Assembly (NCBI RefSeq): GCF_013155125.1
Contig: NZ_CP053564.1
Location: 6,393,501 to 6,457,500 of the forward strand
DNA from: Pseudonocardia broussonetiae
GTDB taxonomy: Bacteria; Actinomycetota; Actinomycetes; Mycobacteriales; Pseudonocardiaceae
Reading direction: 5' to 3'
DNA: 64,000 nt
In this document: positions 47,150 through 58,156 of the stretch, in pieces
Layout of the letters: the number at the start of each line of letters is the position of its first letter
How positions within the stretch are numbered: the stretch's first letter is position 1
Translations under genes and position numbers: made by a program
The notes under the pieces: model-generated
Told to the model about the DNA's origin: nothing
Databases searched by the model: none
What the model saw: only the letters and a program-made list of their open reading frames with translations

Positions 47150-48283
47150 ATGAGCACGCTCGTCGTCGGAGTACCGAGCGAGATCAAGGACAACGAGAAC
47201 CGCGTCGCGATGACCCCCGACGGCGTCGTGGAGCTGGTGCACGCCGGTCACCGGGTCGTGGTGCAGGCGGGCGCGGGCGAGGGCTCCCGGTTCACCGACG
47301 ACGAGTACACCGCCGCGGGCGCCGAGCTCCTGCCCGACGCGGACGGGGTGTTCGCCGCGGCCGACCTCATCGTCAAGGTCAAGGAGCCGGTGCCGGCGGA
47401 GTACCACCGCTTCCGCGAGGGCCAGCAGCTGTTCACCTACCTGCACCTCGCCGCCGACCGCGGGCTGACCGAGTTCCTGCTGGAGCGGTGCATCTCCTCC
47501 ATCGCCTACGAGACGGTGCAGACCGCGGACGGCAAGCTCCCGCTCCTGACCCCGATGAGCGAGGTCGCCGGCCGGATGGCCGTGCAGGCCGCGGCGCACC
47601 ACCTGGAGAGCCCCAGCGGCGGGTCGGGGATCCTGCTCGGCGGCGTGCCGGGCACCCCGGCGGGCAAGGTCCTCATCATCGGCGGCGGGGTGTCGGGCAC
47701 CGAGGCGGCGAAGATCGCGCTGGGGATGCGGGCCATGGTCCGGGTCCTCGACACCAACCCCAACCGGCTCGCGTACCTCTCCGACATCTTCGGCGGCCGC
47801 CTCGACCTGATCACCCCGAACCGGGCCCGGACCGCGGCCTACGTCGCGGAGGCCGACGTCGTCATCGGCGCGGTGCTCGTGCCCGGCGCGAAGGCGCCCA
47901 CGCTCGTCACCCGCGAGATGATCGCGGCGATGCGCCCGGGGAGCGTCGTCGTCGACATCGCGATCGACCAGGGCGGCTGCTTCGAGACCAGCCGGCCCAC
48001 CACGCACTCCGACCCGACCTACGTCGAGGAGGGCGTGACGCACTACTGCGTGGCCAACATCCCCGGCGCGGTCGCGCGCACCTCGACCCTCGCCCTGACC
48101 TCCGCCACCCTCCCCTACCTGGTGAAGGTCGCGCGGCACGGCGTCGTCGGGGCGGCGGCGGGCGACCCGGCCCTGCGCCTGGGGCTGAGCACGCTCGACG
48201 GGAAGCTGACGAACCACCCGGTCGCCGAGGCCCACGGCCTGCCCTCCACCGACGCCGCGGAGCTGCTCACGGCGCACCCGTGA
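47150..48283 (+). CDS. ald: Alanine dehydrogenase
   Basis: 377 aa, typical length. VGVPSEIKDNENRVAMTP is the family N-terminus. The catalytic Lys is in IVKVKEPV and the His in TYLHLAADR. The NAD site is IIGGGVSGTEAAKIALGM, and VVDIAIDQGGCFETSRPTTH is the substrate-side signature. It interconverts L-alanine and pyruvate plus ammonia with NAD. ATG 47150 has GAGGAGA upstream. Its last 17 bases overlap the convergent nitroreductase gene. Confidence 0.95.
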   Translation: MSTLVVGVPSEIKDNENRVAMTPDGVVELVHAGHRVVVQAGAGEGSRFTDDEYTAAGAELLPDADGVFAAADLIVKVKEPVPAEYHRFREGQQLFTYLHLAADRGLTEFLLERCISSIAYETVQTADGKLPLLTPMSEVAGRMAVQAAAHHLESPSGGSGILLGGVPGTPAGKVLIIGGGVSGTEAAKIALGMRAMVRVLDTNPNRLAYLSDIFGGRLDLITPNRARTAAYVAEADVVIGAVLVPGAKAPTLVTREMIAAMRPGSVVVDIAIDQGGCFETSRPTTHSDPTYVEEGVTHYCVANIPGAVARTSTLALTSATLPYLVKVARHGVVGAAAGDPALRLGLSTLDGKLTNHPVAEAHGLPSTDAAELLTAHP

Positions 48284-48926
48284 CGCGGGCCCGGGTGGCG
48301 CCCCACCGGTCGAAGTGAACGACCTGATCGACAGGCAGCCGCGCCGGCTGCGCCCACCGCCCCCGCGCCGGGTAGCCCATCGGCACGAGCGCCATCGTCA
48401 GCGCGTCGGCGGGCAGGCCGAGCAGCTCCCGCAGCTCGTCCTCGTGGCCGCCGTACAGCGTGGTGAGCGAGGTGCCGATGCCGTGCGCGCGTGCGGCGAG
48501 GCACAGGTGCTGCACGGCCCCGTAGATCGACGAGCCCAGCCGCGGGTTCGTCGAGCCGGCGGCGTCGCGCAGCACCGGGAAGACCCACACCGGCGCGTCC
48601 TCGAGGTGGTGGGCCAGGTGCTCGGCGCCCCGGAACCCGGCGGGGGTGAGGCCCCCCGCGCCGGGCCCCGCACCGAGGATCTGCGCGCGCCTGCTGCCGT
48701 AGACGCGCTCCCAGTTCTCGCGGTACCAGCCCGCGACGGTCCGCTTGACGTCCGGGTCGGTGACCACGACCCAGCCCCAGCCCTGCTGGTTGCCGCCCGA
48801 CGGACCGCGGACGGCGGCGTCGAGGACGGCCCACAGCACGTCGTCGGGGATGGGGTCGGGCGCGAGGTAGCGCCGCGAGGGCGTGCTGTGCAGCGCGTCG
48901 AGCGCGGAGAGCGACTCCGGTGCCAC
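48267..48926 (-). CDS. Nitroreductase-family FMN protein
   Basis: 219 aa. The fold is recognised by RRYLAPDPIPDDVL, AVRGPSGGNQQGWGWVVV (FMN phosphate contact), and IYGAVQHLCLAARAHGIGTSL. It reduces nitro groups, quinones or flavins with NAD(P)H, or acts as a dehydrogenase in a subgroup with modified substrates. GTG 48926 has AGGAGG upstream. It is the last leftward gene after the MFS transporter (24-bp gap) and could belong to the flavin-rich operon upstream. Confidence 0.87.
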   Translation of the reverse strand: MAPESLSALDALHSTPSRRYLAPDPIPDDVLWAVLDAAVRGPSGGNQQGWGWVVVTDPDVKRTVAGWYRENWERVYGSRRAQILGAGPGAGGLTPAGFRGAEHLAHHLEDAPVWVFPVLRDAAGSTNPRLGSSIYGAVQHLCLAARAHGIGTSLTTLYGGHEDELRELLGLPADALTMALVPMGYPARGRWAQPARLPVDQVVHFDRWGATRARVTGAP

Positions 48927-48950: not shown

Positions 48951-50453
48951 TCAGGTGAGCGGGGTGGCGGCCGGCGGCGAGAGCGCCACGTCGGCCCCGG
49001 GGCCGGCCGGCGGCGGGACCCGGCGGGGCAGGACGACGGCGGCGAGCACCGCGCCGAGCAGGGCGACACCGGACGCGACCAGCAGCGCGAACCGCTGGCC
49101 CGCCAGCGTCGCCGCGACGGCGTCACCGGCGGGCCCGAACGCGGTGCCGAGCTGCGCCAGCAGCGCCACCAGGGCGATCGCGAGCGCGCTGCCCACGGCC
49201 TGGGTGCTGGTGAGCGCCCCCGCGCCGACGCCGTGGCGCCGCCGCGGGATGCCCGACATCGCCGTGACGGTGCACGCGACGCCGGCCGCGCCGGTGCCCA
49301 GCCCGAGCAGCAGGAACGCCGGCAGCAGGCCCGTGAGGTACGTGGCGCCGGGCCGCAGGGACAGCGCGAGCAGCGTCCCGCCGGCCGCGACCGAGGTCAG
49401 CGCGAGCGGCACGAGCAGCCGCGGCCCCACCCGGTGGAGGTTCCGGGACACGACCTGCGCGACCACGGCGATGAGCGCGGCCCACGGGACGAAGGCGAGC
49501 CCGGCCTGCAGCGCCGACCAGCCGAGCGTGTCCTGCATGTAGAGCGAGCTCGTGAAGTACGACCCGATCGACGTCCCCGCGGTGATGAGCACGAACAGGA
49601 ACGCGGTCGCGGTGCGGGTGCGGAACAGCGACAGCGGGAGCAGCGGGTCGGCCGAGCGCGCCTGGAGCAGCGCGAACAGCCCGCCGAGCACGACGGCCAC
49701 CGCCACCAGACCGGCGCCGAGCAGGACGGCCCCGGACTGGACCTGGGTGAGCCCGAGGATCAGCGCGGCCACCGCGCCCGTCGCCAGCAGGCCGTCGGGC
49801 AGGGCGAGGCGCTGCCCCGGCACCCGCGGTACGGCGGGCACCAGGGAGAACGCGGCGACGAAGGCCAGGACGCACACCGGGACGTTGACGAGGAAGATCC
49901 ACCGCCAGCCGCCCACCGAGGTCAGCAGGCCGCCGATGACGTTGCCCAGGGTGGCCCCGATCGCGCCGACCGCGGCCCACATCCCGAGGGCGCGGCTGCG
50001 CTCACGGGGCGTCACGAACACGGTGGTGAGCAGCGACATCGCCGCGGGTGAGGCCATCGCGGCGCCGGTGCCCGCGAGCACCCGCGCCGCGATGAGCGGC
50101 CCTGCCGAGGTCGCCACGGCGCAGAGCAGGGAACCCACCGCGAACACGGCGAGCCCGATGAGGAACAGCCGCCTGCGGCCCAGCACGTCCGCGGCCCGGC
50201 CGCCGAGCAGCAGCAGGCAGCCGAAGGTGAGCATGAAGGCCGTCAGCACCCCCTGCGCCTGCCCCGGGGTGAGCGCGAGCTCGGCCCCGATCGCCGGGAG
50301 CGAGACGGTGACGACGGTGCCGCCGACCAGCAGCACGAACTGCGTGCTGCAGACCAGCGCGAGGAACAGGCCCGTGCCGCGGACGGCGGGCGGGGCCGGA
50401 TCGGCGGTGACATCCACGGGGACGGGGACGGGAACGGGGACGCGTGCGGGCAC
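48951..50453 (-). CDS. MFS transporter, 14-TM DHA2 (EmrB/QacA) type
   Basis: 500 aa, mostly hydrophobic, about 14 predicted segments. GGRAADVLGRRRLFLIG is the conserved A-motif loop and VLAGTGAAMASPAAMSLL the C-motif region of antiporters. It probably exports a toxic intermediate or the pathway substrate. GTG 50453 begins with the repeat VPVPVPVPV, encoded by a GGGGAC-type hexamer array, and lies three bases after the RibB-like stop; a later GTG before DVTADP is possible. Weak SD suggests translational coupling. Confidence 0.9.
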   Translation of the reverse strand: MPARVPVPVPVPVDVTADPAPPAVRGTGLFLALVCSTQFVLLVGGTVVTVSLPAIGAELALTPGQAQGVLTAFMLTFGCLLLLGGRAADVLGRRRLFLIGLAVFAVGSLLCAVATSAGPLIAARVLAGTGAAMASPAAMSLLTTVFVTPRERSRALGMWAAVGAIGATLGNVIGGLLTSVGGWRWIFLVNVPVCVLAFVAAFSLVPAVPRVPGQRLALPDGLLATGAVAALILGLTQVQSGAVLLGAGLVAVAVVLGGLFALLQARSADPLLPLSLFRTRTATAFLFVLITAGTSIGSYFTSSLYMQDTLGWSALQAGLAFVPWAALIAVVAQVVSRNLHRVGPRLLVPLALTSVAAGGTLLALSLRPGATYLTGLLPAFLLLGLGTGAAGVACTVTAMSGIPRRRHGVGAGALTSTQAVGSALAIALVALLAQLGTAFGPAGDAVAATLAGQRFALLVASGVALLGAVLAAVVLPRRVPPPAGPGADVALSPPAATPLT

Positions 50454-50456
50454 CGC

Positions 50457-51140
50457 TCAGCCGGCCAGCGCGTCGGTGACGACGACGGCCCGGCCCATGC
50501 CGAGGTCGTGCAGCACGTGCGCGAGCTCCGCGCGGCGCCGCGCGAGGACCTCCGACACCCGCACGAGCACCAGGCCGTGCCGGGCGGCGAACCGCTCCAG
50601 CGCCTCCGGGCCCCTCGGCTCGCCGTCGTCGTCGACGACCGTGGCCAGTGCGGCGACCGGGCTCAGCCCGGCGGCCCGGCACAGGTCGACCGCGGCCTCC
50701 TCGGCGCGCGGGCGGGACAGCACGCCGCCGTCGCGCACCCGCACGGGCAGCACGTGGCCGGGCAGGGTGAGGTCCTGCGCGCGGGTCGCCGGATCGGCGA
50801 GCGCCCGGACGGTGGCGGCGCGGTCGTGCGCCGAAATGCCCGTGGTGACGCCGGCACGCAGGTCCACCGACACCGCGAACGCCGGGCGGCCGGGGTCGGA
50901 CCGCCCGCCCGCCTGGGGCGGGATGCGCAGCAGGTCGAGCCGCTCGGCGGTGACGGCGACGACGACGACGCCGCTGGTCTCGCGGACGAGCAGCGCCATC
51001 GTGGCGGCGTCGACGTCCGCGCCGGGCACGACGAGCGCCCCGGACACCGGAGGGTCGGGCGCCAGGTCGTCGACCAGGACGACCGGCCGGGCCGCGGCGA
51101 GCGCGGCCGCCGCGGCGTCGGCGCGCGCCCCGGCGCTCAC
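50457..51140 (-). CDS. RibB-like protein lacking the RibB catalytic residues
   Basis: 227 aa with the 3,4-dihydroxy-2-butanone-4-phosphate synthase fold. TTGISAHDRAATVRALADP and PGHVLPVRVRDGGVL match RibB/RibA2. The catalytic loop DDEDRENEGD is DLAPDPPVSG here; the R-P-G-H-T-E-A motif is RPRAEEA (His and Thr lost); the E in CEI is T (ATV). All three catalytic clusters are therefore changed, and the GTP cyclohydrolase II domain is absent. It is most likely a pseudoenzyme or a re-purposed flavin-related protein. GTG 51140 overlaps the FMN-reductase stop (GTGA). Confidence 0.85.
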   Translation of the reverse strand: MSAGARADAAAAALAAARPVVLVDDLAPDPPVSGALVVPGADVDAATMALLVRETSGVVVVAVTAERLDLLRIPPQAGGRSDPGRPAFAVSVDLRAGVTTGISAHDRAATVRALADPATRAQDLTLPGHVLPVRVRDGGVLSRPRAEEAAVDLCRAAGLSPVAALATVVDDDGEPRGPEALERFAARHGLVLVRVSEVLARRRAELAHVLHDLGMGRAVVVTDALAG

Positions 51141-51748
51141 GACCCCTCCCCCGGCTGCGCGCCCGACAGCACGCCGCGGCGCCGCTCGGTGACCAGGTCG
51201 GCGAAGCGGACGACCTCGTCGGCGACGGTGTGGAGCTGGTCGAGCACCTGCTGCTCGGCGCACGCCCCGTCGACGAACCGCGTCTGCAGCGAGTTCACCG
51301 CGGCCCCGTAGGGTGTGACCCACCCGCGCAGCGCGTGCACGATCGCCCGCAGCGCGGTCAGCGTGGTGACCGCCGCCTGCCAGCCGTAGGCGGTGACGAT
51401 CAGCCCGACGGACCGGTCGGCCAGGTAGGGCAGGCCGTCCCCGCGCATGTCCTCGGTGTAGTCCAGCGCGTTCTTGACCAGCCCGGAGATGGAGCCGTGG
51501 TAGCCCGGCGAGGCGACGATGACGCCGTCGGCCCGGCGCAGGTGCTCCACCAGGTCCGCGGCCACCGGCCCGCCGTCGCCGGCCTCCGGGGCGTACATCG
51601 GCAGCCGTGCCAGCTCGGCGCCGGCGAACAGGCGCGTGGTCGCGCCCGCCGCCTCGGCGCGGGCCAGCGCGATCCGCAGGGCCTGCTCGCTCGACGAGCC
51701 GGTGCGCACGGTGCCGCCGATGCCGACGACGTGCAGCGGGCGGTTCAC
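51137..51748 (-). CDS. NADPH-dependent FMN reductase
   Basis: 203 aa flavodoxin-like protein. GIGGTVRTGSSSEQALRIAL binds the FMN phosphate, ASPGYHGSISGLVKNALDY is the isoalloxazine-contact block of the SsuE/chromate reductase group. It likely supplies reduced FMN to the luciferase-like monooxygenase two genes upstream, since such oxygenases need free FMNH2. GTG 51748 overlaps the hydrolase TGA (GTGA); no other start fits. Confidence 0.9.
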   Translation of the reverse strand: MNRPLHVVGIGGTVRTGSSSEQALRIALARAEAAGATTRLFAGAELARLPMYAPEAGDGGPVAADLVEHLRRADGVIVASPGYHGSISGLVKNALDYTEDMRGDGLPYLADRSVGLIVTAYGWQAAVTTLTALRAIVHALRGWVTPYGAAVNSLQTRFVDGACAEQQVLDQLHTVADEVVRFADLVTERRRGVLSGAQPGEGS

Positions 51749-52593
51749 GACCCCGCTCCCGCCACCGCGGCGAACGGGCCGGCCGCCTCCGCGTGCTCGG
51801 GCCGGTCGAGGAACGCGGTGATCGCGGCGAGCGTGTCGTCGGGGTACTCGACGACCATCCCGTGCCCGCCGCGCGGCAGCACCTGCAGCACGGCGTCCGG
51901 GAGCAGCGCGGCCATCTCGACCGACTGCGCCACCGGGGTGAGCACGTCCTCGGCGCCCGCGAGCACCAGCGTCGGCGTGGTGGCGCCCGGGAGCCCGGGC
52001 CGCGAGTCGTACACGCGCAGGCCCGCGGCCTGGGCCTCGAACCCGGCCAGGGTGGTGGGGTGCGGGTCCTGGCGCAGGAGCTCGGCCTGCGCCGCCGCGG
52101 CGTCGTGGTCGGCGAGCATCCGCCCGGTGAAGCCCCACGGCATGCCGGTCAGGGCGATCGCCACCGGGTCGACGCCGGCCCGGCGCAGCACGAGGCCGCA
52201 GTCGAGCCAGGCGTCCTGCACGGGCGTGTAGGACGGGAAGGCGTTGAGCAGGACCGCGCGGCGGAGGTGGTGCCCGTGGCGGATGAGCATCGACTGCAGG
52301 ACCGAGCCGCCCAGGGACCAGCCGACGGCCGCGACCGGGCCGAGGCCTACGTGCTCGACCAGCGCGGCCGTGTCGTCGGCGAGGTCGTCGATCGCGTACG
52401 GGCCGGGCGGCACTGCACTGCGGCCGGTGCCCCGGTTGTCCACGGTGATCACGGTGTGGTCGGCGACGAGCCGCGGCACGACCGCGGCCCAGGCCGACGA
52501 GCTCGCGCCGAGGCCCGAGACGAGCAGCAGCGGCGGGCCCTCGCCCCGGACGTCGTAGTGCAGCGTCGTGCCGTTGACGGTTGCGGTGGCCAT
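51745..52593 (-). CDS. Alpha/beta hydrolase
   Basis: 282 aa. Oxyanion segment VSGLGASSSAW, nucleophile elbow GWSLGGS, and the catalytic Asp and His in LAGAEDVLTP and PRGGHGMVVEYP. No signal peptide. The cap region (residues about 130-200) is aromatic- and Leu-rich. It could cleave an ester, lactone or C-C bond produced by the monooxygenase. ATG 52593 has GGGAGG nine bases upstream and lies two bases after the monooxygenase stop, so the genes are translated together. Confidence 0.9.
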   Translation of the reverse strand: MATATVNGTTLHYDVRGEGPPLLLVSGLGASSSAWAAVVPRLVADHTVITVDNRGTGRSAVPPGPYAIDDLADDTAALVEHVGLGPVAAVGWSLGGSVLQSMLIRHGHHLRRAVLLNAFPSYTPVQDAWLDCGLVLRRAGVDPVAIALTGMPWGFTGRMLADHDAAAAQAELLRQDPHPTTLAGFEAQAAGLRVYDSRPGLPGATTPTLVLAGAEDVLTPVAQSVEMAALLPDAVLQVLPRGGHGMVVEYPDDTLAAITAFLDRPEHAEAAGPFAAVAGAGS

Positions 52594-52595
52594 CG

Positions 52596-53879
52596 TCAGT
52601 TGCCTCCCACGAGCGCCGCGGCGCCCACGGTCGTCGGGGTGGTCGTCGGGGTGGTCGTCGGGCCCGCGGGCCGCCGCTGGCTCGCGACCGGTGTCCAGTG
52701 GTCGGGCTCGTCGGCCCACAGGTCCCGCAGCTGCGGGATGACCTGCGAGCCGAACAGGTGCGTGTTCTCCGCGGCCGTCTCCTCGGGCAGGTCGCCCATG
52801 TGCAGCGAGGCGATCAGCTGGCCGACGCGCAGCTCGGTGGCGAGCTCGCGGACGCGCTGGGCGACCCGGTCGGGCGTGCCGGCGATGATGTAGCCCTTCT
52901 CGTCGTACTCCCAGAAGCTCATCTCGCCCGACACGGCCCGGCGCTTGTCCTCCAGCGCCTCGGGCGTCGCCGTGCGCCCCAGCATCCCGCGCATCGACGC
53001 GGGCGAGGTGTAGCCCGGCGGCGTCGCGAACCGCATCGACGGGTCCTTGACGCGCTGGAAGTACTTCACGGCATCGGCGTAGCGCCGTTCCGCCTCGGCG
53101 TCGGAATCGGCGACGCAGATCAGCTGCGTGAACGCCATCCGGTGCGGATTCATGTCGCCGCCATTCGCCGCGACGTAGTCCCAGTAGCGGTCGACGAGCG
53201 GTTTCGCGGCCCGCAATCCCGAGAACGAGAGGTGCCCGTAGCAGTAGTTCTCGCGGGTGACCAGTTCCCAGGTCTCCACGCTCCCCGATCCGGGCACCCA
53301 GATCGGCGGCCGCTCCTGGACCGGGCGGGGCCACACGTTGACGTAGCGGAGCTGGTTGTACTTCCCGTTGAACGCGAACGGCTCCGGTTCCCGCCACGCC
53401 CTCAGCACCAGGTCGCGGGCCTCGTGGAAGCGCTCGCGCAGCTCGATCGGGGGCCGGGCGTAGGCGAAGGCGGAGTCCATCGGCGTGCCGAACACGAAGC
53501 CCGCGATCACCCGCCCGTCGGACAGGCAGTCGAGGTAGGCGAGCTCCTCGGCCACGCGCGTCGGCGGGTTGTAGAGGGCGAGCGAGTCGCCGATCACGAG
53601 GATCGCGGCGTGCTCGGTCGAGCCCGCCACGCTCGCTGCCAGCAGGTTCGGCGACGGCGTCATCGCGAACGGCGTCTGGTGGTGCTCGTTGACGGCGAGC
53701 CCGTCGAAGCCGTCGCGGTCGGCCTGCTGCATCAGCCGCACGAACATGCGGTAGTTCTCCCCCACGCGGCGCGGGTCGGCCAGCCCGATCGGGCTGTCCA
53801 CCCACGCGCCCTGGCCCGGGGCCGGGAACGCGTCCGGCAGGCCGTCGTAGGTGACCTCCGCGAACCAGTGGAACTTCAT
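52596..53879 (-). CDS. Luciferase-like (LLM) flavin-dependent monooxygenase
   Basis: 427 aa, TIM-barrel LLM class. GFDGLAVNEHHQ and GSTEHAAILVIGDSLALYNP near the N-terminus, then LDCLSDGRVIAGFVFGTP and RPPIWVPGSGS, match FMNH2- or F420-dependent members. It would use reduced flavin from the reductase and O2 to oxidise a small molecule. The C-terminal 20 residues are a PTTT repeat. ATG 53879 has AGGATGG upstream. It heads the leftward operon LLM, hydrolase, FMN reductase, RibB-like, MFS. The substrate is unknown; the divergent ABC importer suggests a peptide-like or other polar molecule. Confidence 0.9.
   Translation of the reverse strand: MKFHWFAEVTYDGLPDAFPAPGQGAWVDSPIGLADPRRVGENYRMFVRLMQQADRDGFDGLAVNEHHQTPFAMTPSPNLLAASVAGSTEHAAILVIGDSLALYNPPTRVAEELAYLDCLSDGRVIAGFVFGTPMDSAFAYARPPIELRERFHEARDLVLRAWREPEPFAFNGKYNQLRYVNVWPRPVQERPPIWVPGSGSVETWELVTRENYCYGHLSFSGLRAAKPLVDRYWDYVAANGGDMNPHRMAFTQLICVADSDAEAERRYADAVKYFQRVKDPSMRFATPPGYTSPASMRGMLGRTATPEALEDKRRAVSGEMSFWEYDEKGYIIAGTPDRVAQRVRELATELRVGQLIASLHMGDLPEETAAENTHLFGSQVIPQLRDLWADEPDHWTPVASQRRPAGPTTTPTTTPTTVGAAALVGGN
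52629..52662 (-). repeat. In-frame 12-bp repeat at the end of the LLM gene
   Basis: Nearly three copies of GGTCGTCGGGGT encode PTT-PTT type repeats in the tail of the monooxygenase, outside the barrel. Confidence 0.8.
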
Positions 53880-54226: not shown

Positions 54227-55171
54227 GTGCTGAAGTTCTTCGCTCTCCGCGTGCTGACCACGGTCCCGGTGCTGGTCCTGGTCACGTTCGTGGTGTTCGG
54301 GCTCGTGCTGCTCATCCCGGGCGACCCCGCGGTGACCATCGCGGGCCCGGACGCCACCGTCGAGCAGGTGGCCGCGGTGCGCGAGCGCCTCGGCCTGGAC
54401 CGGCCGACCATCGTGCAGTACTGGGACTGGGTCACCGGCGCCCTGTCCGGTGACCTGGGCACGTCGCTGTTCACCAGCCGCCCGGTGGCCACCTCCATCG
54501 CCGACGGGCTGCCCGTCACCGTCGCGCTGGCGTCGACGGCGCTGCTGATCTCGCTGGCGATCGCGGTGCCCGTCGCCATCCTCTCGGCCCTGCGGCGCGG
54601 GACGTGGATCGACCGGGTGGCGACCGCCGGCTCGTCGCTGGGGATCGCGCTCCCGTCGTTCTGGCTCGGCCTGGTGTTCGTGCTCGTGTTCAGCCTGGCG
54701 CTGGGCTGGCTGCCCGCCACCGGGTACGTGCCGATCTCGGAGGACCCGGGGCTGTGGCTGACCCACATCCTGCTGCCGGCGCTGACGCTGGGCATCGCCG
54801 GCGCCGCCGAGAGCACCCGCCAGCTGCGCGGCTCGATCATCGGGGTGCTGCAGCAGGACTACGTGCGCACGGCCCGCGCCAAGGGCCTGCGCAGCCGGAT
54901 GGTCATCGGCAAGCACGTGCTGAAGAACGCGAGCGTGCCGCTGGTGACCGTGCTCGGCCTGCAGATCACCGCCCTGCTCGGCGGCGCCGTGCTCGTCGAG
55001 CAGGTGTTCGGCGTGCCGGGCCTCGGCCAGGTGGCGATCAACGCCGTGACCACCCGGGACGTCCCGGTGATCCAGGGGATCGTGCTCGTCGCCGTGCTGG
55101 TGGCGGTGGTCTCCAACCTGCTCGTCGACCTCGCGTACGGCTACCTGAACCCGAAGGTGCGGCCCCGATGA
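54227..55171 (+). CDS. ABC importer permease 1 (DppB/OppB family)
   Basis: 314 aa, six predicted membrane segments. The N-terminal TVPVLVLVTFVVFGL, the EAA-like loop DYVRTARAKGLRSRMVIGKH, and the C-terminal YGYLNPKVRPR are typical for the first permease of dipeptide/oligopeptide or nickel importers. GTG 54227 follows AGGAGG. Its stop overlaps the next ATG (ATGA). Confidence 0.95.
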   Translation: MLKFFALRVLTTVPVLVLVTFVVFGLVLLIPGDPAVTIAGPDATVEQVAAVRERLGLDRPTIVQYWDWVTGALSGDLGTSLFTSRPVATSIADGLPVTVALASTALLISLAIAVPVAILSALRRGTWIDRVATAGSSLGIALPSFWLGLVFVLVFSLALGWLPATGYVPISEDPGLWLTHILLPALTLGIAGAAESTRQLRGSIIGVLQQDYVRTARAKGLRSRMVIGKHVLKNASVPLVTVLGLQITALLGGAVLVEQVFGVPGLGQVAINAVTTRDVPVIQGIVLVAVLVAVVSNLLVDLAYGYLNPKVRPR

Positions 55172-56079
55172 CCGATCCCCGGACCCCTCCCACGACCTCC
55201 GGCCCGACCGCGGAGATGGTCGCCCACGGCGGCGGCGTCTGGGCGGACTTCCGCCGCCGCGTCGGCCGCAACCACGCGGCGATGACCGCCCTGGGCGTGC
55301 TGGCGCTCCTCGCGCTCGTCGCCGTGTTCGGCCCCCTGATCACGCCCGCCGACCCGAACGCGCAGAACCTGCGCGGCGTGCTGCTGGACCCGTTCTCGCC
55401 GGGGCACCTGCTGGGCACCGACCAGCTCGGCCGCGACATCCTCTCGCGGCTGATCGTCGGCACCCGCGTCTCGCTGCTGGCGATCTGCCTGGCGCTGGCC
55501 GTGGCCATGGCCATCGGCGTGCCCCTGGGCTTCGTCACCGGCTACGTCGGCGGCCGGTTCGACGGCCTGGTCATGCGCCTCAACGACGCCGCGATGAGCT
55601 TCCCGCCGCTGCTGCTCGCGATCGCCCTGGTCGCGGTGCTCGGGCCGAGCCTGCGCAACGCGATGCTCGCCGTCGGCCTGCTGATGGCCCCGCGGTTCCT
55701 GCGGCTGGTGCGGGGGGTCGTGATCGGCCTGAAGGAGGAGACCTACGTCGAGGCCTCCCGCAGCATCGGCACGCCGACCTGGATGATCATCGTCCGGCAC
55801 ATCCTGCCCAACACGCTGTCCCCGCTGACCGTCGCGGTCGCCGTCACCGCCGGCTACGCGATGCTCTCGGAGGCCGGCCTGAGTTTCCTCGGGCTCGGCG
55901 TCCAGCCGCCCGACGCGAGCTGGGGCTCCATGATCCGCGAGGGCTTCCTCTACTACGGCCGCTCGCCGTGGCTCGGGATCTTCCCCGGGGTGCTCATCGC
56001 ACTGACCGTGTTCACCTTCGTGACCCTCGGCGACGGCCTGCGCGACGCGCTGGGCCGCGAGGAACGGACCGAGTCGTGA
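55168..56079 (+). CDS. ABC importer permease 2 (DppC/OppC family)
   Basis: 303 aa. A hydrophilic N-terminus precedes the OppC N-domain (HAAMTALGVLALLALVAVF), then GTDQLGRDILSRLIVGTR, the EAA loop TYVEASRSIGTPTWMIIVRH and GLGVQPPDASWGSMI near the end, all family hallmarks. It pairs with the first permease. Start ATG 55168 overlaps the DppB-like stop. Confidence 0.95.
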   Translation: MTDPRTPPTTSGPTAEMVAHGGGVWADFRRRVGRNHAAMTALGVLALLALVAVFGPLITPADPNAQNLRGVLLDPFSPGHLLGTDQLGRDILSRLIVGTRVSLLAICLALAVAMAIGVPLGFVTGYVGGRFDGLVMRLNDAAMSFPPLLLAIALVAVLGPSLRNAMLAVGLLMAPRFLRLVRGVVIGLKEETYVEASRSIGTPTWMIIVRHILPNTLSPLTVAVAVTAGYAMLSEAGLSFLGLGVQPPDASWGSMIREGFLYYGRSPWLGIFPGVLIALTVFTFVTLGDGLRDALGREERTES

Positions 56080-56096
56080 CGGCCCAGGAGGCTCCC

Positions 56097-57107
56097 ATGA
56101 CGACGACGCTCATCCCCCCGGTCACCCTGGAGGTCGAGGACCTCGTCGTCGAGGTGCTCACCGAGCACGGCTGGGCCACCGTCGTCGACGGCGTGAGCTT
56201 CGCCGTCGCCCGCGGCGAGACGCTCGGCATCGTCGGCGAGTCGGGCTCGGGCAAGAGCGTGACCTGCCTGTCGATCGCCGGCCTGATGCCGCCCCGGCAG
56301 ACCCGCGTCCGCGCCACCACGCTCCGGGTGCTCGACCACGACCTCACCGGGCTCACCCCGAAGCAGATGTCCGACGTCCGCGGGCCGAACATCGCGATGA
56401 TCTTCCAGGAGCCGATGACGAGCCTGAACCCCGCGTTCACCGTCGGCGACCAGATCGCCGAGGTGCTGCGCCGGCACGAGGGCCTGTCGCGGAGGGCGTC
56501 GTGGGCCCGGGCCGTCGCGCTGCTCGAGCGGGTGGGCGTGCCCGACCCCGGGCGGCGGGCCCGCCAGTACCCCTTCGAGTTCTCCGGCGGGATGCGGCAG
56601 CGCGTGATGATCGCGATCGCGCTCGCCTGCAACCCCGACGTGATCATCGCCGACGAGCCGACGACCGCGCTCGACGTCACCGTCCAGGCGCAGATCCTCG
56701 AGCTGCTGCGGGAGATCCAGCGCGAGCACGGCATGTCGGTCATCGTCATCACCCACGACCTGGGCGTCGTCGCCGACGTCTGCGACCGCGTGCTCGTCAT
56801 GTACGCCGGGCAGATCGTGGAGGGCGCCCCGGTCGACGACCTGTTCGAGGACCCCCGCCAGCCCTACATGGAGGGGCTGCTGGCCGCGATGCCGCGGATG
56901 GACCAGCCCGCCGCGGCGCTGGAGAGCATCCCCGGCTCGCCGCCGCGCGTCGGCGGGATGCCCGAGGGCTGCCGGTTCCACCCCCGCTGCCGGTACGCGC
57001 AGCCGGAGTGCCGCACCGGGGCCCCGCCGGTCCTCGAGCGCACCGACCCCGACCGCTCCGTGCGGTGCCTGCGGCACCGCGAGCTCACCCTGCGAGGTAC
57101 CGCGTGA
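56097..57107 (+). CDS. ABC importer ATPase 1 (DppD/OppD family)
   Basis: 336 aa. Walker A GESGSGKS, Q-loop FQEPMTSLNP, signature FSGGMRQR and Walker B IIADEPTTALD. The C-terminal oligopeptide domain has GCRFHPRCRYAQPEC, which in DppD/OppD can carry an Fe-S cluster or a metal. ATG 56097 has CAGGAGG seven bases upstream, preferred to an upstream in-frame GTG (56076) inside the previous gene. Confidence 0.95.
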   Translation: MTTTLIPPVTLEVEDLVVEVLTEHGWATVVDGVSFAVARGETLGIVGESGSGKSVTCLSIAGLMPPRQTRVRATTLRVLDHDLTGLTPKQMSDVRGPNIAMIFQEPMTSLNPAFTVGDQIAEVLRRHEGLSRRASWARAVALLERVGVPDPGRRARQYPFEFSGGMRQRVMIAIALACNPDVIIADEPTTALDVTVQAQILELLREIQREHGMSVIVITHDLGVVADVCDRVLVMYAGQIVEGAPVDDLFEDPRQPYMEGLLAAMPRMDQPAAALESIPGSPPRVGGMPEGCRFHPRCRYAQPECRTGAPPVLERTDPDRSVRCLRHRELTLRGTA

Positions 57108-58156
57108 CCGCGTCGCCGACCGTTCCGCTGCTCGACGTCGAGGACCTCGTCGTCGGCTTCCCCTCCCGCCGGAGGCTGTTCCGGCCCGCGCCCCCGCCCG
57201 TGCGGGCCGTCGACGGCGTGAGCTTCCAGCTGCACGCGGGCGAGACCGTCGGGCTCGTCGGCGAGAGCGGGTGCGGCAAGTCGACGACCGCGCGCGGCGT
57301 GATGCGCCTGGTCGAACCCACCTCCGGATCCGTGCGCCTGGACGGGCGCGAGCTGCTCGGACTGCCGCCGCGGCAGCTGCGCGCCGCCCGGCGCGACATC
57401 CAGATGGTCTTCCAGGACCCGTACTCGTCGCTGGACCCGTCGATGCTCGTCCGGGAGTCGGTGGGCGAGCCGCTCGACGTGCACCTCGACCTGTCGCGCC
57501 GGGAGAAGGCCGAGCGGGTGGCCGAGCTGCTGCGCCGGGTCGGGCTGCCGCCCGAGTACATGATGCGGTACCCGCACGAGTTCTCCGGCGGGCAGCGCCA
57601 GCGCCTGACGATCGCGCGGGCCATCGCCGCCGACCCGCGGATCCTGGTGCTCGACGAGGCCGTCAGCGCCCTGGACGTCTCCACGCAGAACCAGGTGATC
57701 GGGCTGCTGGAGGAGCTGTCGGCGGCCATCGGGCTCACCTACCTGTTCATCGCCCACGACCTGTCGGTCGTCCGCCACATCTCCGACCGGGTCGCGGTGA
57801 TGTACCTGGGGCAGATCGTCGAGCACGGCGACGCCGCCCGCGTCTTCGACTCCCCGGCGCACCCCTACACCGAGGCGCTGCTGTCGGCCGTGCCGGTGCC
57901 CTCGCCGCGGGCGCAGCGCGACCGGGAGCGGATCGTGCTGGCGGGCGACCCGCCCGACCCGTCGCGCGTGCCGCCGGGCTGCCGGTTCCACACCCGCTGC
58001 CCCTACGTCATGGACGTCTGCCGCACCGAGGTGCCGGTGCCGGTGCGGGCGCTGGGCTCCGGCTCGGTGTCGTGCCACCTGCACACGTCCGGCCCCGGGC
58101 TGGCGGGCGCGTCGGTCCGGACACTGGGCCGCGGCCGCACGGGGGTGCCGGCATGA
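57104..58156 (+). CDS. ABC importer ATPase 2 (DppF/OppF family)
   Basis: 350 aa. Walker A GESGCGKST, Q-loop FQDPYSSLDP, signature FSGGQRQR, Walker B ILVLDEAVSALD (the usual Pro after DE is Ala), and C-terminal GCRFHTRCPYVMDVC. GTG 57104 overlaps the previous TGA. Together with the first ATPase and the two permeases it completes an ABC importer; the substrate-binding lipoproteins are encoded 3-5 kb downstream. Confidence 0.95.
   Translation: MTASPTVPLLDVEDLVVGFPSRRRLFRPAPPPVRAVDGVSFQLHAGETVGLVGESGCGKSTTARGVMRLVEPTSGSVRLDGRELLGLPPRQLRAARRDIQMVFQDPYSSLDPSMLVRESVGEPLDVHLDLSRREKAERVAELLRRVGLPPEYMMRYPHEFSGGQRQRLTIARAIAADPRILVLDEAVSALDVSTQNQVIGLLEELSAAIGLTYLFIAHDLSVVRHISDRVAVMYLGQIVEHGDAARVFDSPAHPYTEALLSAVPVPSPRAQRDRERIVLAGDPPDPSRVPPGCRFHTRCPYVMDVCRTEVPVPVRALGSGSVSCHLHTSGPGLAGASVRTLGRGRTGVPA

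Follow-up and report, generated by a model that had tools for sequence, protein, structure and literature searches.

A catalytically dead RibB-type protein, probably kept by selection, in a flavin-dependent monooxygenase operon of Pseudonocardia broussonetiae

We analyzed a 64,000-nucleotide stretch of Pseudonocardia broussonetiae (contig NZ_CP053564.1, positions 6,393,501 to 6,457,500; hereafter the window), in which an operon for an LLM flavin-dependent monooxygenase and a flavin mononucleotide (FMN) reductase also encodes a protein, here named RibB*, related to RibB, the dihydroxybutanone phosphate (DHBP) synthase of riboflavin synthesis. The residues on which RibB catalysis depends are gone from RibB*, while its reading frame evolves under purifying selection. 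With moderate confidence, we read RibB* from its sequence as a retained pseudoenzyme, most likely a non-catalytic subunit: a dead RibB-type protein kept by selection in the operon of a flavin-using oxygenase of soil actinobacteria probably has a non-catalytic job.

Loss of the catalytic residues

The gene and its landmarks are as follows.
50457..51140, minus strand: RibB* gene, 227 amino acids, GTG start; catalytically dead RibB-fold protein
51137..51140, minus strand: GTGA overlap of the RibB* start with the FMN reductase stop, read from the sequence
51033..51071, minus strand: former loop 1 (DDEDRENEGD), residues 24-36; Arg and three acidic residues lost
50784..50876, minus strand: residues 89-119, comprising a strand, the loop 4 lid (TTGISAHDR) and a helix; conserved in the dead clade
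50739..50765, minus strand: LPGHVLPVR, residues 126-134; His129 invariant across dead and intact copies
50697..50714, minus strand: RPRAEE, residues 143-148, former loop 3 (R-x-G-H-T-E); His lost
50637..50645, minus strand: ATV, residues 166-168, former C-E-I; Glu lost
50457..50519, minus strand: residues 208-227; probably what is left of the C-terminus of a RibA (GTP cyclohydrolase II) half, from alignment to two-domain relatives

RibB* matches PF00926 over residues 9-199 with 177.6 bits (E 2.5e-52; curated cut-off 26.4) and has the RibB fold in its predicted structure, but reaches only 126.9 bits against TIGR00506, the NCBIfam RibB equivalog, whose cut-off is 177.45. Three further PF00926 loci in the same genome (7.29 Mb; G000, with G-numbers denoting genomes and L-numbers loci of our survey) score 272-290 bits versus 177 for RibB*, and all three have intact motifs. 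The RibB landmarks named in the first-pass annotation (TTGISAHDRA, PGHVLPVRVRDGGVL and EAAVDL) are all present, and its description of a RibB paralogue with a dead catalytic center is borne out by the motif replacements: RENEGD has become PPVSGA, R-x-G-H-T-E has become RPRAEE and C-E-I has become A-T-V. Its wording that all catalytic clusters are replaced was too strong, because the PGH His and the active-site shell residues Thr100, Gly101, Ser103, Asp106 and Glu148 are kept; of the two His motifs in RibB, only the GHTE His is lost, and that of PGH (residue 129) is retained.

The losses fall on residues that matter. RibB activity is reported to be lost on changing Glu39, Glu41 or His154 (PMC5228156). 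In RibB*, the acidic Mg loop that carries Glu39 and Glu41 (V. cholerae numbering) has P31 and S33, His154 is replaced by A146, and the Glu of C-E-I by T167. Across the operon clade to which RibB* belongs (see below), R30, E31, E33, D35, H146, T147 and E167 are kept in none of ten thinned rows, and 36 intact accessory copies conserve them at 97-100%, a figure that holds by construction for E31, E33, H146 and E167, which define “intact,” and not for R30, D35 and T147. On this alignment, the loss in the operon clade is not chance. Thirteen positions are fixed in the thinned dead clade and differ from the intact consensus; R72, R145 and S91 are the only polar ones, and no new Asp, Glu, His, Cys or Lys occurs among them. 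A new catalytic cluster was accordingly rejected, and the alternative Glu or His residues in the Mg-ribulose-5-phosphate site that the first-pass annotation had named as a counterargument did not appear. Catalysis by the RibB route is thus excluded as far as sequence allows.

Selection, conservation and genome context

We next compared ratios of non-synonymous to synonymous substitution rates (dN/dS, w; NG86) for seven RibB* pairs, with L040 and L070 each used twice. Values ranged from 0.15 to 0.48 with upper bounds of 0.31-0.66, which supports selection that keeps RibB*, and the shortest form gave w 0.15 (confidence interval [CI] 0.06-0.31). Intact accessory copies gave 0.12-0.28 (nine pairs) and canonical copies 0.15-0.26 (five pairs); three other dead pairs gave 0.40-0.51, with bounds up to 0.87 and 2.17 in the closest two. 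From these values, RibB* is constrained, mostly less than active copies.

Constraint is also redistributed along the protein. Loops 1 and 3 are released in the dead clade, and residues 89-119 are conserved at 0.75-0.86, more than in three intact accessory subclades despite the greater overall divergence of the dead clade. The difference peaks in windows that start at 106-110, in the helix following loop 4, where variation within one intact subclade accounts for part of it. Neither gene conversion nor constraint at the nucleotide level is supported as the cause of the loop-4 conservation: the identical-codon share is 0.55 in the loop-4 region versus 0.57-0.67 elsewhere, i.e., synonymous codons are not unusually conserved, and the region shares nucleotide and amino-acid identities of 0.66-0.69 and 0.63-0.71 with the three other RibB copies of the genome.

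The surroundings of RibB* in the window are as follows.
51137..51748, minus strand: NADPH-dependent FMN reductase, 203 amino acids (PF03358, E 3.9e-24)
51745..52593, minus strand: alpha/beta hydrolase, 282 amino acids, PcaD/RutD-like (PF00561, E 9.7e-27; TIGR02427 131 bits, below cut-off)
52596..53879, minus strand: LLM flavin-dependent monooxygenase, 427 amino acids (PF00296, E 4.3e-39)
48951..50453, minus strand: major facilitator superfamily (MFS) transporter, downstream of RibB* (PF07690, E 1.2e-51); in this place in some relatives only
48267..48926, minus strand: nitroreductase-family protein (PF00881, E 2.8e-18); often a neighbor of RibB* in relatives
54227..58156, plus strand: divergent four-gene ABC transporter (two permeases and two ATPases by eye), kept beside the LLM operon by synteny

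The proposed GTGA coupling to the FMN reductase was confirmed at 51140-51137, and in 8 of 11 Pseudonocardia relatives the RibB* gene overlaps the gene upstream by the same 4 bases; the LLM gene, placed two genes away by the first-pass annotation, is in fact three genes upstream, with two genes between. Of 390 genomes in the family, 14 have an LLM orthologue (≥79% identity), which in G269 (genus g20) is cut by a contig end. RibB* lies in the LLM operon in 10 of the other 13 (G000, G023, G017, G021, G020, G036, G034, G060, G014 and G015, the last two near-duplicates), and the FMN reductase in 7 of 13, all with RibB*; three of the six operons without the reductase have RibB*. Synteny thus bears out a conserved operon with the LLM and FMN reductase and rejects the reading of RibB* as a random neighbor. 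Hydrolase, nitroreductase, AMP-ligase-type and transporter genes recur around it. RibB* is also kept with a broken LLM in G004 and with no LLM orthologue in G010 and G058, and genus g11 has a form of 169-172 amino acids overlapping the end of the hydrolase gene in all three genomes examined (G155, G201 and G205). In G269, another dead form (RENEGD and GHTE gone, S-D-I for C-E-I) follows a ligase-type gene at the opposite contig end from the LLM, where it is itself cut. No RibB* match was found in the two stretches searched of G388, which has a more distant LLM only.

Several side observations concern the same region. In L036 (9352-10506 and 6031-6678), RibB* is separated from the nitroreductase gene by a transposon-type gene (TnpB-like by eye), and the LLM of that genome was only partly recovered. 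Past the right end of the window lies a second LLM paralogue (63% identity; G000:C1:6460566-6461780; L063 4567-5811), whose region, with short-chain dehydrogenase/reductase genes, a hydrolase and two proteins of ~650 amino acids, prolongs the same island in many relatives. A regulatory RNA in the window was rejected, as an Rfam scan returned no family at gathering score.

The main rival to a retained pseudoenzyme is a slowly decaying relic: a working RibBA would once have raised a flavin supply that is no longer limiting, and the gene would now be eroding, its frame staying open mainly through translational coupling and short time. Several results lean this way and weigh against retention. The LLM operons of G056 and G047 lack RibB*, and in G059 it is reduced to ~30 N-terminal residues fused to the hydrolase (L057 7815-8762, where the hydrolase ends in ~30 residues matching the start of the G014 protein, a remnant fused by deletion). 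The LLM therefore does not need RibB* in these three genomes, and, since such operons exist, RibB* is not an obligatory LLM subunit. Its w is mostly raised over intact copies and over its neighbors (for the window-L035 and L038-L040 pairs, 0.00-0.19 apart from a single value of 0.29), although some neighbors are higher (MFS up to 0.42 in L037-L042; an ABC gene at 0.47 in L040-L049). The RibA half is either gone already or near neutral: in the two operon pairs that can be split, the RibB half has w 0.18 and 0.35 and the RibA half 0.31 (CI 0.12-0.62, L038-L040) and 0.73 (CI 0.43-1.21, L037-L042), and the L282-L048 pair splits likewise into 0.38 and 0.72. Folding alone could explain part of the loop-4 conservation, because canonical RibB is equally conserved there (0.88 at 0.80 overall), and the segments were chosen by hand and compared without a formal test. 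Against a relic, however, the CIs of all seven RibB* pairs lie below 1, the shortest form is as constrained as working copies (which makes this reading less likely), constraint on residues 89-119 has not faded, and dead forms have open frames in three genera. Taken together, we regard decay as a serious though rather unlikely explanation.

Accessory RibB(A) genes and the origin of RibB*

We then placed RibB* among 140 RibB genes from the matches listed in 62 genomes, four listed places being left out. Ten false hits were removed, as was G015, a near-duplicate genome; no RibB gene was called at two loci, the 140 exclude the window gene, and one gene (G000:C1:3746826) is counted twice, as L003 and L267. 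Among the genes listed, 59 lie in a riboflavin operon (riboflavin and lumazine synthase neighbors, by eye), none with a PF01613-type flavin reductase or an LLM of the survey clusters within three genes. The other 81 lie outside it: at least 44 are near a PF01613 flavin reductase (directly adjacent in 41 of 44 records), at least 8 near a PF03358-type reductase (7 of these in dead copies) and at least 26 near an LLM, all lower bounds since neighbor families were named from one scanned member per cluster and 3.5-kb loci show little context. The 7 PF01613 and 88 PF00296 hits of G000 would give ~0.9% and 11% expected per locus, an expectation that ignores the kinship of copies, such that binomial values are not true probabilities.

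With gene starts corrected, 62 of these 81 genes retain all three motifs. The 19 others comprise 11 of the operon clade and L044, L048, L053, L279, L282, L052, L054 and L276. The last three have lost loop 1 and the His but kept the C-E-I Glu, and they lie in a conserved gene cluster that has no flavin reductase or LLM of the survey clusters. L048, L279 and L282 are other dead RibB-type genes beside an LLM, that of L048 overlapping a PucR-type regulator gene. Intact RibB genes also have a recurrent neighbor of the dihydroorotate-dehydrogenase family (L187 6279-7313 and 17 similar genes; PF01180, from one scanned member). In a plasmid survey (301 records matched, three places examined), an intact RibBA adjoins a flavin reductase in Pseudonocardia sp. 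EC080619-01, a RibBA is annotated after an LLM in Rhodococcus oxybenzonivorans (from annotation alone), and Rhodococcus sp. JS3073 has an intact RibBA with neither in view. Judged by context and homology, RibB* is a member of this accessory RibBA family beside flavin reductases, most of it catalytically intact, a point absent from the first-pass annotation; it shares the location away from the riboflavin operon and lacks the intact residues of a supply role. The survey suggests that, in Pseudonocardia, an enzyme of riboflavin synthesis has repeatedly become linked to flavin reductases and monooxygenases, in most cases with its motifs intact, and that some copies have become pseudoenzymes.

The nearest named proteins come from Pseudonocardia, including a 64% relative encoded in P. 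alaniniphila. Some close relatives are entered as “DHBP synthase” or RibBA, e.g., P0012 (P. thermophila), though the residues for that reaction are gone; another, P0004, is a “hypothetical protein” at NCBI. Several close relatives are two-domain proteins of 331-412 amino acids whose RibA halves keep zinc-type cysteines and miss the R-G-H-E-G-R-G-I-G segment, a motif lacking in all 13 long dead copies. The final 20 residues of RibB* align to the far end of this RibA half and therefore look like its relic, also new relative to the first-pass annotation: the middle of the ancestor was probably deleted, although the stretch is short and uncertain (predicted local distance difference test scores of 75 and 45 in the last two blocks). 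The RibA motif is missing in 17 of 57 long copies first scored intact among the matches listed, from which RibA seems to decay before RibB. Such RibBX-like actinobacterial genes, beside flavin reductases and with intact RibB motifs, include L046, L047, L050, L051, L241 and L265.

After the catalytic columns had been taken out of the alignment, the tree joined 14 operon-type genes, two of them from genus g11, in one clade (support 98/93); L044 was unplaced, and the remaining seven dead genes grouped with the canonical genes in a clade of 26 rows (100/98). A single lineage of all 22 dead copies was weakly rejected (approximately unbiased [AU] test, p 0.029, an optimistic value given that the grouping was named after the first tree and long branches are present), and therefore at least two losses of catalysis are likely. 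AU values were p 0.355 for the seven as one clade and p 0.314 for the placement of L044.

Possible roles and comparison with known systems

By sequence, RibB* is one of the accessory RibB(A) genes found repeatedly in Pseudonocardia next to genes for flavin reductases and flavin-dependent monooxygenases. The first part to decay was probably the RibA half, now at most a 20-residue relic; the RibB half has lost the Mg-binding acidic loop, catalytic His and conserved Glu, with the fold kept under purifying selection and constraint shifted onto loop 4, the following helix and the PGH motif. RibB* would make no dihydroxybutanone phosphate. Because each subunit of a RibB dimer has its active site covered by loop 4 of the other, RibB* may form a dimer with a working RibB(A) in which it provides the lid in trans, and so tune local flavin supply on operon induction; alternatively, it may hold a phosphorylated ligand or an operon partner without turnover. 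A dead subunit that keeps the cross-dimer element and drops own-site elements fits a partner role, while dimerization, partner, ligand and effect are predictions, which counts against the proposal. The most specific version, an operon-encoded regulatory subunit whose mixed dimers with RibB(A) retune riboflavin synthesis at the protein level, through a loop-4 lid in trans, when a flavin-hungry monooxygenase operon is induced, we consider unlikely. If true, it would couple the supply of a cofactor to the catabolism that consumes it at the level of proteins, and with catalysis lost in at least two accessory lineages, it may have evolved more than once.

Less probable still is that the RibB pocket was remodeled for a different substrate from the LLM/hydrolase pathway, making RibB* a new enzyme or a ligand-binding protein: Thr100, Asp106, His129 and Glu148 are conserved on the pocket side, and two positions often carry Arg in dead copies (R72 in 13 of 15 and R145 in 11 of 15 rows including L044, R72 also in 8 of 36 intact), but the clade-fixed changes brought so few polar residues, and none of the usual catalytic kinds listed above, that we doubt it. 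That RibB* is still a DHBP synthase via other residues would suit its fold and the kept part of the active-site shell, and is highly improbable with all three residues reported as needed lost and three intact copies elsewhere in the genome. Least credible is a flavin-degrading, RcaE-like system, toward which the first-pass annotation had pointed from the pairing of LLM and flavin reductase: a flavokinase in the cluster is a feature of the riboflavin lyase (RcaE) system, yet the genome’s single PF01687 hit lies 3 Mb away (G000:C1:3435138), and the recurrent neighbors are of the other kinds named above. The riboflavin/lumichrome pathway described in PMC12746152 uses P450, thiamin-dependent and Rieske-type enzymes; none is among the genes named around the operon, although no search aimed at these enzymes was made.

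No paper on a dead RibB in such monooxygenase operons was found in the literature searched, which held few of the subscription papers. Compared with RibB/DHBP synthase (PF00926; 1g57, 4p8e and 3mio), RibB* shares the predicted fold, loop 4, PGH motif and length, and differs in having lost the acidic residues of loop 1, the His of loop 3 and the later Glu. In lux-type loci, the riboflavin-synthesis genes work and supply flavin. Those with DHBP synthase and GTP cyclohydrolase II domains are listed, in PMC1793995, with luciferase-family and flavin reductase genes, as in the RibB* operon. RibBX of A. baumannii (6mnz) is likewise a RibBA paralogue with one changed half; from its title as a two-domain DHBP synthase, its RibB half is taken to work beside a decayed RibA half, whereas in RibB* the RibB half is without catalytic residues and the RibA half deleted. 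A similar arrangement is reported for the ipp cluster of Rhodococcus sp. D-6 (PMC12442392), in which the oxygenase and flavin reductase genes of a two-component monooxygenase flank the RibB-like orf2560 (214 amino acids, listed only as “Synthase”), which is co-induced with them (log2 fold change 4.46). Compared by gene content, the two systems differ in the oxygenase, which is of group D in the ipp cluster and an LLM in the RibB* operon.
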